NCBI GenBank assembly: GCA_012520055.1
Contig: JAAYPA010000004.1
Coordinates: 1 to 38,035, forward strand
DNA: 38,035 bases
Direction of reading: 5' to 3'
DNA from: Mollicutes bacterium
GTDB lineage: Bacteria > Bacillota_I > Bacilli_A > RF39 > UBA660
The translations under genes were made by a program, and so were the position numbers. The notes under the pieces were generated by a model. The model saw only the letters and a list, made by a program, of their open reading frames with translations. It ran no database searches and was not told the DNA's origin. Of this stretch, positions 189-38,035 are shown piece after piece; position 1 is the stretch's first letter, and each line of letters starts with the position of its first letter.

Positions 189-869
189 TTAATCTCTATT
201 TCTTGTAAATATTAAAATTAAACGTAAAACTTCTAAAGCACTAGCTAGGACACCGGCTACATATGTATATGCTGCAGCTTTTAACATATTATTAGTGCAT
301 TCTAATTCTTCTTCATTAACTAAGTTATATTTTTTTAGTTCTTCTTTAGCTTTTGAACTAGCATTAAATTCCACTGGTAAGGTAATTAATTGAAATATTA
401 ATCCTAAAGATACTAGACCAATTCCAGCCCAAATTAAATTTAAAGACGAAAATATAAATCCTAACAATAAAATAAAATATGCTGTTCTTGTTCCTAAACT
501 GGCAATAGGGAAAATAAAACTACGAATTTTCATAAAAGCATACCCATCTTTATCTTGAATGGCATGTGAGCATTCATGAGCAGCTATAGCTATAGAGGCG
601 ATACTAGTACCATGATATACTTCACTTGATAATCTTACTGTCTTACGAGACGAATCGTAATGATCATTCATTGTACCTTTAACTTCTACAACATATAAAT
701 CTTTTAAACCGTTATTTTCTAAAATCTTTTTGGCAACATCATAGCCGGTTAACTTTTTGTTATTGGCTATTTGTTTATATTTACCATAAGTAATTGAAAC
801 ATAGATTTGAGCTATTAAAGGTATTACTAAAATTAATAAAAATAAACTATCATACGGCATATCACTCAC
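189..869 (-). CDS. yugP: YugP-type membrane zinc metallopeptidase
   Basis: Membrane protein with HECSH (HExxH) in AAHECSHAIQD; start GTG 869 or ATG 860; overlaps the cysS stop. Confidence 0.85.
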   Translation of the reverse strand: MSDMPYDSLFLLILVIPLIAQIYVSITYGKYKQIANNKKLTGYDVAKKILENNGLKDLYVVEVKGTMNDHYDSSRKTVRLSSEVYHGTSIASIAIAAHECSHAIQDKDGYAFMKIRSFIFPIASLGTRTAYFILLLGFIFSSLNLIWAGIGLVSLGLIFQLITLPVEFNASSKAKEELKKYNLVNEEELECTNNMLKAAAYTYVAGVLASALEVLRLILIFTRNRD

Positions 870-2256
870 CTACAATCTTGTATGTTGTTCCTTCTCTAGT
901 ATCTATTAGCATAATTCCTTTAGCAAGTAAATCATTACGAATAGAATCTGCCATATCATAATCTTTACGTTTTTTAGCATTATCTCTGGCTTTTATTAAA
1001 GCCATTATTTCTTCATGATTACTACTTTGCTTTTCATCTATTATCAAGTCTAAACTTAAAACTTTATCAAAACTTCTGATTAAATCTAATTTAGTATGAC
1101 CATTAACTAAATCATTTTTTAATAAGTCATAAATTAAAGTTATCGCATTAGCTGTATTTAAATCATCTTCTAAATGACTAATGAATTTATTATTATAGAA
1201 GGCAAAAGCATCTTCATCTAATATTCCTTCATCTTTAATTAAAGAAATTTTATTTAATAATTTCTTATAAGCTTGGTCAGCACTATTTAAAGACGAAAAA
1301 CTAAACACTAGTTGTTTACGATAATGACTATTTAAGCACATAAAACGAAAACTTAAAGGATTATAACCTTTTTCTTTTAATAAAGAAACGGTTAAGGTTG
1401 CTCCTTTACTTTTACTCATCTTACCTGATTCATCTAATAAATGTTCATTGTGGAACCAATAATTACACCATTTATGGCCCAAATAAGCTTCACTTTGAGC
1501 TATTTCATTAGTATGATGTGGGAAAATATTATCTACTCCACCGCCATGAATATCAAGATATTCTCCACCATGATTAATTGAAATCCCGGTACATTCCATA
1601 TGCCATCCCGGATATCCCATACCCCAAGGAGAATCCCATTTTAATTCTTGATCTTCAAACTTTGATTTAGTAAACCAAAGTACAAAGTCAGTTTTATTCC
1701 TTTTATTAGGATCGTTTTCTACATCTTCTCTAGCACCGACAATTAATTCATCTTCTTTATGGTTGGTTAATTGATAATAATCTGTTAATTTTGAAGTATC
1801 AAAATAAACATTACCACCAGATAAATAAGCATATCCTTTATCTATTAAAGTTTTTGTAATCTCTATATATTTGTCAATATGTTTAGTAGCCGGAGATACT
1901 ATTTCTGGTACTTTATTATTAACTAAATCAAAATCCACAAAAAATCTATCTGTAAAATAAGCTGCAATATCTAAAACTGATTTATTTTCTTTTTTGGCAG
2001 TTAAAACCATCTTATCTTCACCATAATCAGAATCACCAGTTAAATGACCTACATCGGTAATATTCATAATTCTTTTAACTTTATAACCTAAATATCTTAA
2101 AGTTTTATCTAAAATATCATGGCCAATATAATTACGCATATTACCAATATGTTGATCATGATAAACCGTCGGACCACAAGTATAAAATATTATTTCTCCG
2201 TCACGATGTGGTTTAAACTCTTCTACTTTTTTTGTTAATGTATTATAAAATCTCAT
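862..2256 (-). CDS. cysS: Cysteinyl-tRNA synthetase
   Basis: FYTCGPTVYHDQHIGNMR, GGGVDNIFPHHTNEIAQSEA, KMSKSKG motifs. ATG at 2256 preceded by TGGAGG is preferred over the ORF-track TTG start at 2268. Confidence 0.95.
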   Translation of the reverse strand: MRFYNTLTKKVEEFKPHRDGEIIFYTCGPTVYHDQHIGNMRNYIGHDILDKTLRYLGYKVKRIMNITDVGHLTGDSDYGEDKMVLTAKKENKSVLDIAAYFTDRFFVDFDLVNNKVPEIVSPATKHIDKYIEITKTLIDKGYAYLSGGNVYFDTSKLTDYYQLTNHKEDELIVGAREDVENDPNKRNKTDFVLWFTKSKFEDQELKWDSPWGMGYPGWHMECTGISINHGGEYLDIHGGGVDNIFPHHTNEIAQSEAYLGHKWCNYWFHNEHLLDESGKMSKSKGATLTVSLLKEKGYNPLSFRFMCLNSHYRKQLVFSFSSLNSADQAYKKLLNKISLIKDEGILDEDAFAFYNNKFISHLEDDLNTANAITLIYDLLKNDLVNGHTKLDLIRSFDKVLSLDLIIDEKQSSNHEEIMALIKARDNAKKRKDYDMADSIRNDLLAKGIMLIDTREGTTYKIVGE

Positions 2257-2288
2257 ATTTACCTCCAACTACTTTTATTTTATCATTT

Positions 2289-3995
2289 TTAGCTTGCAAA
2301 TAAAAGATTATTATCTTGATTAAATCCTATTGGACTCTTACATTCATTATTAAATAAGAATATAATCGTATTATTTAATAATAACTTTTCATTTTTGTTG
2401 TTGGAAATATAACCATTGTTAATCATTGTATCTATTAAATTATATAAAATTTTGCCGGCATCTTGATAATTATTGAAAATAATTATTGAAAAAGGAAATT
2501 CATTTAATTCATCATATAGATTATTATTACCTAAAAGTTTATTAACACTGTATTCATCATTATAATCTCGGCAATCAATATTAATTAAATGAATATTTAA
2601 AGATTTAGCTATCGATTTAATAATTTCTTCCTTCTTATTTTTTTCTACACCATTTAAAATCATATATCTGTTTGGTTTATTATCTTTTAAAATATTAATA
2701 ATATTTTTAATTATTTGTTCATTATATTTGGTAATTAAATCTTCTTTTAAACTTTCAAGTTTTGCTGTATCATAACAAGATAAATTAATCCGAGAGGAAA
2801 TAATATCATGAATATCCTTTTCCATAAGGATTAGCTCTGTATGTAAGTTCTGATAATTATCCAAAGTTTTTTTAGAACAAGTTGTATCTAAGATATCAAT
2901 ACACTTATCAGGATTATAAAGATTAGGTAAGTATTTATCACATTCTTTTATTAAAAAACTAATTGTTTTCTTGGAAATTTTAATATTATAATGTTTTTCA
3001 AAACTATCTTTTATTTTTGATAATATATATTTCATATCATCTAAAGTTGGTTCATTAATGGTTACCGGAGCAAACCTGCGACATAGAGCAGAATCTTTTT
3101 TTATATATTCATTATATTCACTTATAGTAGTTGCTCCGATTATTGATAAATCTCCGCGTGCTAAATATGGTTTTAAAATATTTCCTGCATCGATTGAACC
3201 ATCTGATGCTCCAGTTTTAACAATATTATGAATTTCATCAATAAATAGGATAATATTTTTTTGATTGATTACTTCTTTGATTAAATTATTAACTCTTTCT
3301 TCAAATTCACCACGATATTTGGTACCAGCTATTAAGGAAGCTGTATTAATTAAAATAATTTGTTTATCTTTTAAACGGTTTGGTACTTCACCCTTTTTAA
3401 TCATTCTGGCTAGTTCTTCAACTATAGCTGTTTTACCTACTCCGGCTTTACCAATTAGTAAAGGATTATTTTTATTACGACGTAAAAGGATTTGCATAAT
3501 TTCTTTGATTTCTTTTTCTCTTAATAGGATTTTATCATCACTATATTTCTCATTTAAATTTATACCTAATTCAGTCGTAAAAGAAGGTTTATTTAATTCT
3601 TTGGTTACTTCTTTAACAGAAATACCCATGTTATCAACTATTCTAAGTGCTATACCATCTGTTTCATTAAATAGAGCAGTTAAAAGATATAATTCATCCA
3701 TATCACGATGATCATCATATGACTTGTTATAAGCTTTATCAATAACTAATTTTAGCAAAGGAGTATATAAAATTTGTTCACTTCGTTTACTTGACATACC
3801 CACAACATTTATTAAACAATTTCTAAAATTAGTATATGTCAAATTATACTTATAACAAATCTTTTTTATTTTGTCTTTTTTAAGTAATGAAAGTAATAAA
3901 TGTTCTGTACCAACGTAAGGATGATGTAAATCTAACATTTCATTTTCAGCATCTTTTAATATTTCAATAACTGCTTTGTTATAACATTTATCCAT
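2289..3995 (-). CDS. ClpC-like AAA+ protein: Clp_N domain + intact D1 + degenerate, truncated D2
   Basis: Clp_N repeats (HPYVGTEHLLLSLL), D1 Walker A GKAGVGKTA, Walker B IILFIDEIH, pore loop AGTKYRGEFEER, arginine-finger region KDSALCRRF; second module recognisable but lacks Walker A/B. Confidence 0.85.
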   Translation of the reverse strand: MDKCYNKAVIEILKDAENEMLDLHHPYVGTEHLLLSLLKKDKIKKICYKYNLTYTNFRNCLINVVGMSSKRSEQILYTPLLKLVIDKAYNKSYDDHRDMDELYLLTALFNETDGIALRIVDNMGISVKEVTKELNKPSFTTELGINLNEKYSDDKILLREKEIKEIMQILLRRNKNNPLLIGKAGVGKTAIVEELARMIKKGEVPNRLKDKQIILINTASLIAGTKYRGEFEERVNNLIKEVINQKNIILFIDEIHNIVKTGASDGSIDAGNILKPYLARGDLSIIGATTISEYNEYIKKDSALCRRFAPVTINEPTLDDMKYILSKIKDSFEKHYNIKISKKTISFLIKECDKYLPNLYNPDKCIDILDTTCSKKTLDNYQNLHTELILMEKDIHDIISSRINLSCYDTAKLESLKEDLITKYNEQIIKNIINILKDNKPNRYMILNGVEKNKKEEIIKSIAKSLNIHLINIDCRDYNDEYSVNKLLGNNNLYDELNEFPFSIIIFNNYQDAGKILYNLIDTMINNGYISNNKNEKLLLNNTIIFLFNNECKSPIGFNQDNNLLFAS

Positions 3996-4048: not shown

Positions 4049-4807
4049 CTATTCAACAAAATGATCTAATCTTAACTTATCTGCTAGTGTTGCTATAAAT
4101 TCAGAATTAGTTGGTTTGGCTCTATCATAGTCAACCGAATGACCAAATATCTCCTCCATTAAGTCATAATCACCTCTGGACCAACTGACTTCGATAGCAT
4201 GTCTGATTGCTCTTTCGACACGACTCGTTGTAGTATCATATTTTTGAGCAATCTCAGGGTACAACTCTTTAGTTATCGCTCCAATCATAGATGGATGATT
4301 ATACATTAAATCAATACCATCACGAATATAGAGATAACCTTTAATGTGAGATGGAATGCCTAAAGAATGTAATAATGTAGTAATTGCTTGCTTTAAATCC
4401 TTGTCTTTGACAATTAAGCTATTATCTTTGGCTGTCATGGCACTTATGATATGACTTTCTAAATCTTCATACCTAAATGGTTTAAGCATATAATAGCTGA
4501 CACCGACTTCTGCACATTTTTTAATTACTTCAAGTGAATTCATACCAGTGACAATTATGCTTTTCTTATTGATATTTTTTTTCTTTAATTCTTCAAGTAC
4601 ACTTAAACCATCCATTTTGGGAATGATTAAGTCCATAACTATCAAATCATAATTATCTTTTTGATTTGTTAGCTTCGCTAAAGCCTCCTCTCCATCTGAT
4701 GCTTTACCTACTACATTAATTCTAACGTGACTACTAAAATACTCTTCTACTGCTTTGACAACGTTTTGATTGTCATCAACAACAAAAACTCGTATTTCTT
4801 TTTCCAT
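4049..4807 (-). CDS. spo0A: Sporulation transcription factor Spo0A
   Basis: Receiver domain (VFVVDDN..., VMDLIIPKMDGL, KPF) plus Spo0A-specific C-terminal DNA-binding domain (GIPSHIKGYLYIRDGI..., TTTSRVERAIRHAIEVSWSRGD). Confidence 0.95.
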   Translation of the reverse strand: MEKEIRVFVVDDNQNVVKAVEEYFSSHVRINVVGKASDGEEALAKLTNQKDNYDLIVMDLIIPKMDGLSVLEELKKKNINKKSIIVTGMNSLEVIKKCAEVGVSYYMLKPFRYEDLESHIISAMTAKDNSLIVKDKDLKQAITTLLHSLGIPSHIKGYLYIRDGIDLMYNHPSMIGAITKELYPEIAQKYDTTTSRVERAIRHAIEVSWSRGDYDLMEEIFGHSVDYDRAKPTNSEFIATLADKLRLDHFVE

Positions 4808-33087: not shown

Positions 33088-34647
33088 TTAATCAACTACA
33101 TAAGGATTTGTTAATGTCCCTGATCCAGTTACGACGACATCCGGTTTTAAATTAATAACTGGTCTTATTGCGACATATTCATCGTTAATGAAATATGTGC
33201 TTATCTTAGAGCTGGAGGATACACCATAAAGATTTTCTCTAAAAGGAGTCATTGTCCAATACAAATAATTGAAATATAAATAATTATCTCTATTTGATGT
33301 ATCAAATAATAGCCCAGCTATTGACACTTCATCGGCGGTTATAAGCCCGACCGGATATGTTAGTGCACCGTTACCAATATGTTTTTTGGTAACCGTAAAT
33401 TGGTCATTTATAAAGCCACATTTTAAAGTCGGTGCTTTGTTTAAATATAATCTATAAAACCCTGCATAGTAATTTTCACCAGGAAAATTACCATATCCCG
33501 GACTAATATTATATCCTCCAACTTCACTGCTTAATAAACGATCGTTACAAAATAAATTATCAGCTATTTTATTTTCAAATGTTTTACTTAAAATGTTTTC
33601 TTCATACCATTCATCTAAAACTATTTTAATATTACTTGAGGTGTCATTAGTAACTGCCTCTATTCGTGATTTAGAAGCTTCTCCGTTAGGTCCACCATAC
33701 ATATATCCTACATACTTAATATCATCAGTATATTCATTCCATTTGTCAAGATTAATATATACATCGTCATCTTCTCCGCTCATAGTACCATTTTGCTTAA
33801 ATTCTTCTTCTGTTCCGTTATATAGTATTCGAATAGAGCCATCTCCATTGATACGGACTATTTTCCACTGAAAACCACCAAATATTAAATTATTCTTAAG
33901 TAAGCTATTGTTACCACGAAAATAATAGCTAGTTCCATATTCATCTTCCATAGCGTATAAACCACTATCTGAAGAAGATGAAATAGCTGCAAAGCTTGGA
34001 TTACCTTTTGCTTCGATAACTGATGGTCCTCCCGCTTCAGATAAAATTATATCTTTTAAACAATTACCTGATACACATGGATCAGCATAATTTTCAATTA
34101 AAATATGAGCTTTAAAAGTCTGATTTATATCACCTGATTGATCATTACCTGTTTCATAATAATAAAATTTCATTTGATAGCTGTGAATTGCACCATCTAC
34201 ATCTCCTATAAATTTACCGACACCCAGTTCTATTCTATTGGTACCTACATAAATATCATCTGGAATAGCCGGTACAATATAACCATTATCAGATGTATTG
34301 GTGCTGGTCATTGTAAAACTAATAGCATTTTTACTTATACCATTTTCATCTATTATTAAACTAATTTTATAATACATTTCAGATTGTTCAATTGTACTTG
34401 TTCCAGTTACTGTAAAATCTTTTGTTCCAAAAGCTTCATCTGATGGATATAAACCAGTAGCTTCAATTCCATTTCCACCATCAAACTCTATTTCCATTTT
34501 ACCGGAATCTAAAGTAATGGTAGTATCGGTTTCAACCCCGGTAATATTGGCAACAAAATATGAATATGTTATTCCTACTAACATAAAAAAGATAACAATA
34601 AATATACAATATTTAAGAATTTTATTTATATTTTTTATTACTTTCAT
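33088..34647 (-). CDS. Surface protein with TasA-like leader and variable C-terminal domain (paralog 1)
   Basis: KYCIFIVIFFMLVGITYSYFVANITGVETDTTI leader; FGGFQWKIVRINGDGSIRILYNG; TYPVGLITADEV; RPVINLKPDVVVTGSGTLTNPYVVD end. Confidence 0.75.
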   Translation of the reverse strand: MKVIKNINKILKYCIFIVIFFMLVGITYSYFVANITGVETDTTITLDSGKMEIEFDGGNGIEATGLYPSDEAFGTKDFTVTGTSTIEQSEMYYKISLIIDENGISKNAISFTMTSTNTSDNGYIVPAIPDDIYVGTNRIELGVGKFIGDVDGAIHSYQMKFYYYETGNDQSGDINQTFKAHILIENYADPCVSGNCLKDIILSEAGGPSVIEAKGNPSFAAISSSSDSGLYAMEDEYGTSYYFRGNNSLLKNNLIFGGFQWKIVRINGDGSIRILYNGTEEEFKQNGTMSGEDDDVYINLDKWNEYTDDIKYVGYMYGGPNGEASKSRIEAVTNDTSSNIKIVLDEWYEENILSKTFENKIADNLFCNDRLLSSEVGGYNISPGYGNFPGENYYAGFYRLYLNKAPTLKCGFINDQFTVTKKHIGNGALTYPVGLITADEVSIAGLLFDTSNRDNYLYFNYLYWTMTPFRENLYGVSSSSKISTYFINDEYVAIRPVINLKPDVVVTGSGTLTNPYVVD

Positions 34648-34657
34648 ATTTTACTTC

Positions 34658-36259
34658 TTAATCTATTACTTGATATGGATTAGTTAATGTTCCTTCGCCA
34701 GTCACAACTACATCTGATTTTAAATTAATGACTGGACGCAAACTGTCATATTCTATTGTTCTAGTAACAAGACTACCAGATATATTAGCATGATAACCTA
34801 CGCCCCAAATAGTCGCTTCAGCACTTCCGTCAAAAAAAGCATATGGGGACATTGTATGGAATGGAAGCTCTACAAACAAATAATTATCTACATTCTGGGT
34901 ACCATAAATTAGACCAGCCATCATTACCTCATCTATCGTAATTAACCCAACTGGATACTTTAATGATCCATTACCAAGACTTCTTTTAGTAACTGTAAAC
35001 TGATCATTTTGTTGTTTACATTTTAATGTTGGGGTTTTCGCTGTATATATTCTGTATCTTGGAGCATAACTAGCATAAAATTGTCCATATCCTGGATCTT
35101 TAATATTTTTTCCAAGAATTTCTTCTACAAATTGACGATCATTACAGAATAAATTATCCGCTATTTTATTTTCAAAAGTTTTATCTAAAAAGCTTTGTTT
35201 ATACCATAAATCCAATTGTTCTTTGGCATCACTATCAGTTTCATTAAATGTGGCAGCCGATGATGTAAAACCATGTCTTTGGGTAGAAGCAACTCCTTTA
35301 GGCCCGCCATACATATATCCTACATATTTATTATCATTATAAATACTTGAATACGAATAAAAGCCTAGGACTGTCTCCTCGCCTATATCATTCATTGTAT
35401 CATTTTGATTAAACTGTTCTTTAGTGCCATTGTACATTATTCTTATTGATCCATCTCCGTTAATACGGATGATTTTCCACTGAAACTCTCCAAAAATTAA
35501 ATTATTGTTTAATATATTTTTGTTACCACGATAATAATAAGAAGTACCATATTCATCTTCCATAGCATACAACCCCGTATCACTTTCAGTAGAGATGACT
35601 GTAAAATTAGGATTACCTTTAGCTTCTATTGCTGCTGCTCCTCCACCTTGAGCTAAAATCTTATCTTTTAAACATTCCCCAGTTACACATGGGTTATTAT
35701 AACTTTCAATTGAAACATGCGCCTTGAAATTTTTATTGATATCATTTGATTGATCAGTATTAGTTTCATAAAAATAGAACTTCATCTGGTAAGTATGTAC
35801 AGCATTGTTAACAGGTCCTATGAATTTACCTATACCTAGTTCAATATTATTTGTTCCAACATAAATATCTTCTTCTATTGAAGGAACTACCATACCATTT
35901 CCAGAAGTATTAGTACTAGTTAATTTAAAACTAATCGCATTTTTACTTAAAGTGTTTTCATCAATTACTAAACTTATTTTGTAATTCATTTCGGAAAGGT
36001 CAATTGTACTTGTCCCGGTTATAGTAAAATTTTTAGTACCGAAAGATGTATCTGAAGGAGCTAGTCCGGTAGCATTTATAGCCGGGCCACTACTATAAAC
36101 AATATCCATGTTACCAGAATCCATTGTTATAGTGGTATCTGTCTCTACTCCTGTTAATCCAGCAACGAAAAAAGAATAAGTTATTCCTATTAACATAAAG
36201 AATATTGATATAAAAATTACATATTTAAGAATTTTATTTACTATCTTTAATACTTTCAT
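34658..36259 (-). CDS. Surface protein with TasA-like leader and variable C-terminal domain (paralog 2)
   Basis: Collinear with paralog 1 over most of its length (GLTGVETDTTITMDSG, EFQWKIIRINGDGSIRIMYNGT, RPVINLKSDVVVTGEGTLTNPYQVID). Confidence 0.75.
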   Translation of the reverse strand: MKVLKIVNKILKYVIFISIFFMLIGITYSFFVAGLTGVETDTTITMDSGNMDIVYSSGPAINATGLAPSDTSFGTKNFTITGTSTIDLSEMNYKISLVIDENTLSKNAISFKLTSTNTSGNGMVVPSIEEDIYVGTNNIELGIGKFIGPVNNAVHTYQMKFYFYETNTDQSNDINKNFKAHVSIESYNNPCVTGECLKDKILAQGGGAAAIEAKGNPNFTVISTESDTGLYAMEDEYGTSYYYRGNKNILNNNLIFGEFQWKIIRINGDGSIRIMYNGTKEQFNQNDTMNDIGEETVLGFYSYSSIYNDNKYVGYMYGGPKGVASTQRHGFTSSAATFNETDSDAKEQLDLWYKQSFLDKTFENKIADNLFCNDRQFVEEILGKNIKDPGYGQFYASYAPRYRIYTAKTPTLKCKQQNDQFTVTKRSLGNGSLKYPVGLITIDEVMMAGLIYGTQNVDNYLFVELPFHTMSPYAFFDGSAEATIWGVGYHANISGSLVTRTIEYDSLRPVINLKSDVVVTGEGTLTNPYQVID

Positions 36260-37739: not shown

Positions 37740-38035
37740 TTATTGATATATTGCTTTGAATGGTAATCCCGTACTGCCATCTCCGGTTACTCTAACGTGT
37801 GTACTAATAGAAATTACCGGTCTAATTCCATTAGCACGATGTACAGTTTCTGTTAATAAATAACCAGTAGTTGTTACATAAAATATAGATGAGCCGCTAC
37901 CTTGATATGGAGACATAGTCCAATAATCAATATCACTACACAAAAAGGCTGTACCAGCAGCAGTCCCATATACAAGACCTCCCATCGATGCTTCATCTGC
38001 CGTTAATAATCCGATTGGATAATCTAGGGCTCCAT
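37740..38035 (-). CDS. C-terminal part of a third surface-protein paralog (runs off the right edge)
   Basis: Frame open to window end: ALDYPIGLLTADEASMGGLVYG...YWTMSPYQGSG...IRPVISISTHVRVTGDGSTGLPFKAIYQ; matches paralogs 1 and 2. Confidence 0.7.
   Translation of the reverse strand, partial: GALDYPIGLLTADEASMGGLVYGTAAGTAFLCSDIDYWTMSPYQGSGSSIFYVTTTGYLLTETVHRANGIRPVISISTHVRVTGDGSTGLPFKAIYQ

Follow-up and report, generated by a model that had tools for sequence, protein, structure and literature searches.

A ClpC-type protein with a dead second ATPase ring and a retained IGF tripeptide, probably the only ClpP-partner unfoldase of a small-genome bacterium

In ClpA, ClpC, and ClpE, the D2 ring is the part that contacts ClpP, and the M-domain of ClpC serves adaptor control and the resting state. 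Two-ring AAA+ proteins in which one ring is inactive and has turned structural are known from NSF (D2) and Pex1/Pex6 (D1). Both rings of ClpE are required for full activity; when its AAA2 is dead, disaggregation of MDH is lost and degradation is strongly lowered, with casein and CtsR still partly degraded together with ClpP (PMC13125188). In ClpC and ClpE, parts of D2 that lie close to Walker B and to the arginine finger provide further contacts with ClpP (PMC12521514, PMC13125188).

The window analyzed here, a stretch of 38,035 nucleotides, carries a clpC-like gene on its minus strand (2289..3995, ATG to TAA), identified from its ORF, from Pfam, NCBIfam, and PDB matches, and from congeneric orthologs. 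Its 568-aa product shares with Firmicutes MecB/ClpC and mycobacterial ClpC1 a Clp_N domain, a D1 module with its motifs, and an (I/V)GF tripeptide at the position of the ClpP-binding loop. Unlike these proteins, which are ~770 to 820 aa long, it has a dead D2 that is truncated after the IGF and an M-domain that is almost absent. The 568-aa protein would resemble ClpX in being an unfoldase with one motor ring that docks ClpP via IGF. However, it combines a D1-type module with Clp_N, whereas in ClpX the module is of D2 type and is joined to a zinc domain. With the ClpX family model it scores 20 bits, below the cut-off of 359. Furthermore, the tripeptide of ClpX lies on a loop of the active module, whereas in the family studied here it is carried by what is left of D2 or by a C-terminal tail. 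ClpB and a second Hsp100 of this family (L087-L091) have a homologous D1 but an intact D2 and no IGF, and are thus the mirror image of the 568-aa protein. Finally, both rings persist in NSF and Pex1/Pex6, whereas here the dead ring has been cut away, in one genus to three residues.

The N-terminal part of the protein is of ClpC type (this and the other features of the locus are on the minus strand). Clp_N (residues 1-140, 3576..3995; PF02861, E 3.7e-13), the AAA module, and its lid (together the D1 module, residues 150-375, 2871..3548; PF00004 and PF17871) all score above the Pfam cut-offs, and the best PDB relatives found with phmmer are chains of Bacillus subtilis ClpC/MecB. All catalytic motifs of D1 are there; the motifs GKAGVGKT, GTKYRGEFEER, FIDEIH, and CRRF bear out an earlier note on this DNA, made from the letters alone, which had called Clp_N and D1 intact. 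The same note had described the M-domain as missing or very short. Its place is taken by a short linker (residues 376-425, 2721..2870), the fastest-evolving region of the protein, and in decayed forms generally this region has about half its usual length: the stretch between the D1 lid and D2 has a median of 80 residues in fully decayed family proteins versus 142 in intact ones. Because the M-domain is gone, control by MecA-type adaptors appears to have been lost as well. A profile for McsB/arginine kinase (PF00217), used with targeting through that kinase in mind, found no match, but it matched no control genome either, so this negative carries no weight.

The linker is followed by a noncatalytic D2-like large subdomain (residues 426-555, 2331..2720), identified from AlphaFold2, Foldseek, and dN/dS analyses. 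By alignment with intact ClpC proteins of the family, its former Walker A motif reads GVEKNKKE (residues 449-456, 2628..2651) and its former Walker B motif IIFNNYQD (residues 505-512, 2460..2483), with the catalytic Glu replaced by Asn509 (codon 2469-2471). The GYVGY pore loop is gone, as had been noticed earlier, and the arginine finger, sensor 2, and lid are also missing. The region reaches 21.8 bits with Pfam AAA_2, where 27 are required, and phmmer aligns residues 444-556 with B. subtilis ClpC 540-665, which is D2 up to sensor 1. Modeled alone, the D2-like part folds with a pLDDT of 83 and a pTM of 0.78, and Foldseek matches the model to ClpA, ClpB, and ClpC chains with a probability of 1.00 and query TM-scores of ~0.7-0.76. 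Therefore, the D2 ancestry of the remnant is real, as judged from the predicted fold.

The putative ClpP-docking tripeptide, IGF (residues 556-558, 2322..2330), directly follows this subdomain. It falls in the same column of the joint alignment as the IGF/VGF of full-length family ClpC proteins, in agreement with the earlier proposal that it occupies the position of the ClpP-binding loop; the IGFN codons span 2319-2330, and the protein ends 10 residues past the IGF. The ClpP-binding loop of Staphylococcus aureus ClpC likewise starts at a conserved Asn, N659, which faces Walker B (PMC12521514). A conserved tail, NLLFAS (2292..2309; genus consensus LLF[TA]x), closes the protein. AlphaFold2 confidence is below 50 at the last residues, the IGF tail included. 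Taken together, the alignments support the view of a dead D2 scaffold joined to an intact D1 and keeping a putative docking motif for ClpP.

The truncated form is not an accident of one assembly. The same truncation occurs in orthologs from the genus, namely in the sister genome G037 (80% identity), in L098-L101 (63-78%; some of these are possibly the same species as genomes in the other genome set), and in L173 and L174. Since every other species read in the genus has it, chance cannot account for it. Every congeneric ortholog ends in IGF-x(n)-LLF[TA]x, and cysS is the next gene wherever this was checked. The two findings that the earlier note had named as refuting its view, full-length orthologs in close relatives and an IGF not conserved among truncated ones, were thus both looked for in the genus, and neither was seen. 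Those orthologs whose records carry names are metagenome-assembled genomes of uncultured Bacilli or Erysipelotrichaceae. In congeneric pairs, the dN/dS ratio (Nei-Gojobori) is 0.07-0.27 for the D2 remnant, 0.11-0.27 for Clp_N, 0.06-0.19 for D1, and 0.2-0.7 for the linker, figures that are rough because synonymous sites are almost saturated in the more distant pairs. The low values for D2, together with an open frame and a form common to congeners, uphold the earlier judgment that the gene is not frameshift debris. A pseudogene was ruled out on the same grounds, as neither relaxed selection nor a broken frame is seen in the genus.

Two genes flank the clpC-like gene. Directly downstream lies cysS (862..2268, minus strand; ORF, with congeners in the same order), whose ribosome-binding site had been placed about 20 nt 3' of the clpC-like stop, and this placement holds. 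Directly upstream lies spo0A (4049..4807, minus strand; TIGR02875, 268 bits against a cut-off of 200). A role in sporulation had been raised as an example; beyond the adjoining spo0A we found no specific link, and in most other genera the neighbors differ. Elsewhere in the window, two long paralogous proteins are encoded in tandem (33088-34647 and 34658-36259), followed by a short related frame (37740-37985). All three have similar C-terminal ends resembling RPVINLK/TGxGTLTNPY, and other genera have comparable frames close to their clpC, L013 and L017 being two cases.

The host family consists of gut-type bacteria with small genomes, and decay of D2 recurs across it. We surveyed 84 ClpC proteins, one per genus read, and searched 98 family genomes. 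Both D2 Walker motifs are kept in 65 of the 84 proteins, only Walker B is lost in nine, both are lost in nine, and only Walker A is lost in one; the Walker B glutamate is thus gone in 18. In an enlarged set with more species, Walker B is lost in 33 of 114 proteins. On trees of Clp_N plus D1, which were quick and have some long branches, the decayed state needs a minimum of 11 parsimony changes, and well-supported branches force no fewer than 8 of them. A one-time origin was rejected on these trees: forcing the decayed proteins into one clade is 296 log-likelihood units worse (AU p 1e-65, 45-row subset).

Throughout this decay, the tripeptide persists. Its Gly is present in all 33 decayed proteins, as is an aromatic residue after it (28 Phe, 5 Tyr). 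We compared this with the 35 D2 positions whose conservation among intact proteins is 90% or higher; after the IGF, the best-kept of these columns reaches 67% in the decayed proteins, and the D2 arginine finger and sensor-2 Arg are kept in 3%. For the shortest proteins, the aligner bridged a large deletion, and the motif is still visible by eye at the C-termini. All 33 decayed proteins have intact Walker A and Walker B motifs and arginine fingers in D1, and the D1 pore loop is kept essentially without exception. In these comparisons, the ClpC of this family has lost its second motor ring repeatedly and always with the IGF kept, so it probably runs on one ring.

The Walker B change itself is uniform. 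Wherever a decayed protein still has the residue, the Glu has become Asn (24/24; AAT in 17, AAC in 7), across independent losses, and the preceding Asp varies, being Lys, Asn, Glu, or still Asp. Recurrent neutral drift is an unlikely cause, because Asn makes up 8.4% of the residues of decayed proteins and the replacement requires two base changes. As a guess, a D2 that holds ATP but does not hydrolyze it might be a favored first step.

The most extreme reduction is found in the genus to which G058 belongs, where nine species encode proteins of 435-464 aa that consist of Clp_N, D1, the D1 lid, and a short coil, with D2 absent. Their C-termini read NIGFKTN, NIGFKPS, YIGFKTN, TFGFCS, SIGFN, TLGFKIN, SIGFKIC, KIGFKLP, and PIGYTAEISYT; that is, the proteins end in (I/L/F)G(F/Y) plus 1-3 residues, with one exception of IGY plus 7. 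ClpP is present in 9 of the 18 genomes of this genus, exactly those with the D2-less protein, and in the other nine neither ClpP nor a ClpC-type protein was detected. HslU and the proteasomal ATPases PAN and Mpa, with their HbYX tails, are likewise single-module proteins, with a C-terminal docking motif where the D2-less proteins have a putative one. The peptidase and the motif are different, however, and the tripeptide of the D2-less proteins derives from an internal loop, which makes the likeness an analogy only.

The partnership with ClpP can be examined across the family, where most genomes are drafts or metagenome assemblies and statements of absence depend on their completeness. The genome of the window (G000) is 72% complete and that of its sister G037 95%. 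ClpP was found in both, and the sister protein conserves the regions of the GxxASM serine and the IHQ histidine; G037 also has a second, more divergent ClpP (G037:C10:957-1463, a 196-aa frame, E 8e-58). The model for ClpX scored above its cut-off in 0 of the 98 family genomes and in 10 of 14 control genomes. Each of G000 and G037 holds only a protein of the 568-aa type and one weaker D1-type match, which in G000 is a 335-aa AAA protein without IGF. This D1-only protein is encoded next to tex (L002; G000:C131, 1396-2403), and similar ones include L214-L221. Such proteins of 310-360 aa are widespread in the family, including in genomes without ClpC and ClpP, and the C-termini read have no IGF. 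The second Hsp100 of the family, where read (~705 aa), has the intact D2 and lacks the tripeptide, as described above. In G111:C20, G113:C6, and G114:C23, Clp-like open frames of ~490 and 960-980 aa lie a few kilobases apart.

Family-wide, ClpC and ClpP co-occur (Fisher p 5e-10, with shared ancestry ignored). ClpP is missing from 9/98 genomes, the same nine are also without a ClpC-type protein, and no genome of the family keeps ClpC without ClpP. Four genomes have a ClpP-family match yet no ClpC (G011, G055, G078, and G095). Of these, G011 is 69% complete and has a fragment where a contig breaks off, and the ClpP-family hits in G055 are only weak. A 538-aa ORF in G095 was considered as the missing ClpC and ruled out, as it is another AAA paralog without IGF.

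Because ClpP is present and neither ClpX nor a second IGF-bearing Hsp100 was found alongside it, the 568-aa protein is most likely the ClpP unfoldase itself. On these sequence comparisons, we think it quite likely that this organism has a single unfoldase partnering ClpP, namely a ClpC in which the second ATPase ring no longer works and only enough of it remains to hold the IGF. The earlier note had suggested a different role, that of a pseudo-ATPase ring that could modulate ClpCP. Such a regulator might act on a full-length ClpCP or ClpXP encoded elsewhere in the genome, for example through competition for ClpP or through mixed hexamers. A dead D2 with a retained IGF is what such a regulator would look like, but no partner for it to regulate was found: the search for a separate full-length clpC returned none with IGF in G000 (72% complete) or in the 95%-complete G037, ClpX was undetected in 98 genomes, and the second Hsp100 of some genera lacks the motif. 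We therefore regard modulation of another Clp protease as improbable. The gene might instead be on its way out, with the IGF as a leftover, given that ClpC and ClpP are both absent from 9/98 family genomes and from half of one genus. This is very hard to reconcile with a remnant dN/dS of ~0.07-0.27, the lack of internal stops, a uniform architecture across the genus, and the loss of the IGF in 0/33 decayed proteins, and the selection data already contradict it.

Two further explanations concern what the protein does rather than whether it is needed. It could dock ClpP and open its gate but unfold little, with ATP in D1 mainly holding the ring together, so that only peptides and loosely folded proteins are cleared. 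The motor that was lost is indeed the ring that touches ClpP, and a ClpE AAA2 Walker B mutant fails on aggregated MDH and degrades casein and CtsR only in part (PMC13125188). Pure gating, however, would have no need of the pore loop of D1, its Walker B glutamate, or its arginine fingers, all of which are retained essentially without exception, and we hold this explanation to be unlikely. A chaperone independent of ClpP, with another purpose for the IGF, can be almost wholly discounted. The D1-only relative of 335 aa does survive in ClpP-less genomes, but the ClpC-type protein occurs in precisely the ClpP-bearing genomes of one genus and follows ClpP almost as closely family-wide, and its IGF is the canonical ClpP tripeptide, which becomes C-terminal once D2 disappears.

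If the 568-aa protein is the unfoldase for ClpP, Clp_N would take in substrates, and a predicted ring of six D1 modules, lined by pore loops, would hydrolyze ATP to unfold and thread them. Below this ring, the remnant D2 large subdomain would offer the IGF to the hydrophobic pockets of ClpP, and degradation would follow from the D1-driven unfoldase acting with the peptidase. In the D2-less genus, the IGF at the extreme C-terminus would act like the C-terminal tails of HslU and the proteasomal ATPases. The family's decayed proteins lack the D2 sites from which ClpC and ClpE make their further ClpP contacts, and because of this their coupling to ClpP may be looser. Substrates may also be restricted to weakly folded proteins.

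We also looked for comparable proteins beyond the family. A class-wide scan covered 247 genomes, and decay of D2 like that in the family was not seen elsewhere among the best matches, which were the ones listed and from which seven candidates in other families were fetched. Six of the seven gave a readable ORF, and five of these were rejected because both acidic residues of Walker B are there, or almost so. The sixth, L203, comes from G503 in a different family of the class and is a 650-aa Clp_N plus D1 protein whose D2 is degenerate and lacks the IGF. Its genome has a separate 870-aa Hsp100 frame, and in contrast to the protein of the window, L203 may be a pseudo-Clp with a genuine regulatory role. 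L208 (G187) is a 638-aa ClpC with intact D2 Walker motifs that ends just past the arginine-finger region, which may reflect a truncation at an early stage or an error in the local reading frame. We found no report of proteins like the 568-aa one in the open-access literature searched, which excludes most subscription journals, and a literature search on apicoplast ClpM gave nothing.

For the family as a whole, it seems probable on balance that ClpC changed on many occasions from a two-ring machine to a ClpP protease with one ring, driven by D1. The Walker B Glu would have changed to Asn first, followed by loss of Walker A, the lid, and the M-domain, after which D2 would have served as a carrier of the IGF. 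In the final state, a C-terminal IGF tail would dock ClpP as HbYX tails dock the proteasome. The recurrent change from Glu to Asn stands out as a convergence. With 435-464 aa, the D2-less proteins would belong with the smallest ClpP unfoldases in nature that have a Clp_N domain. Because the D2 motor has been removed naturally with its tripeptide kept, the purpose of D2 becomes directly testable, and the family proteins can be used to ask whether D1 alone powers degradation by ClpP and whether the IGF needs a structured loop.
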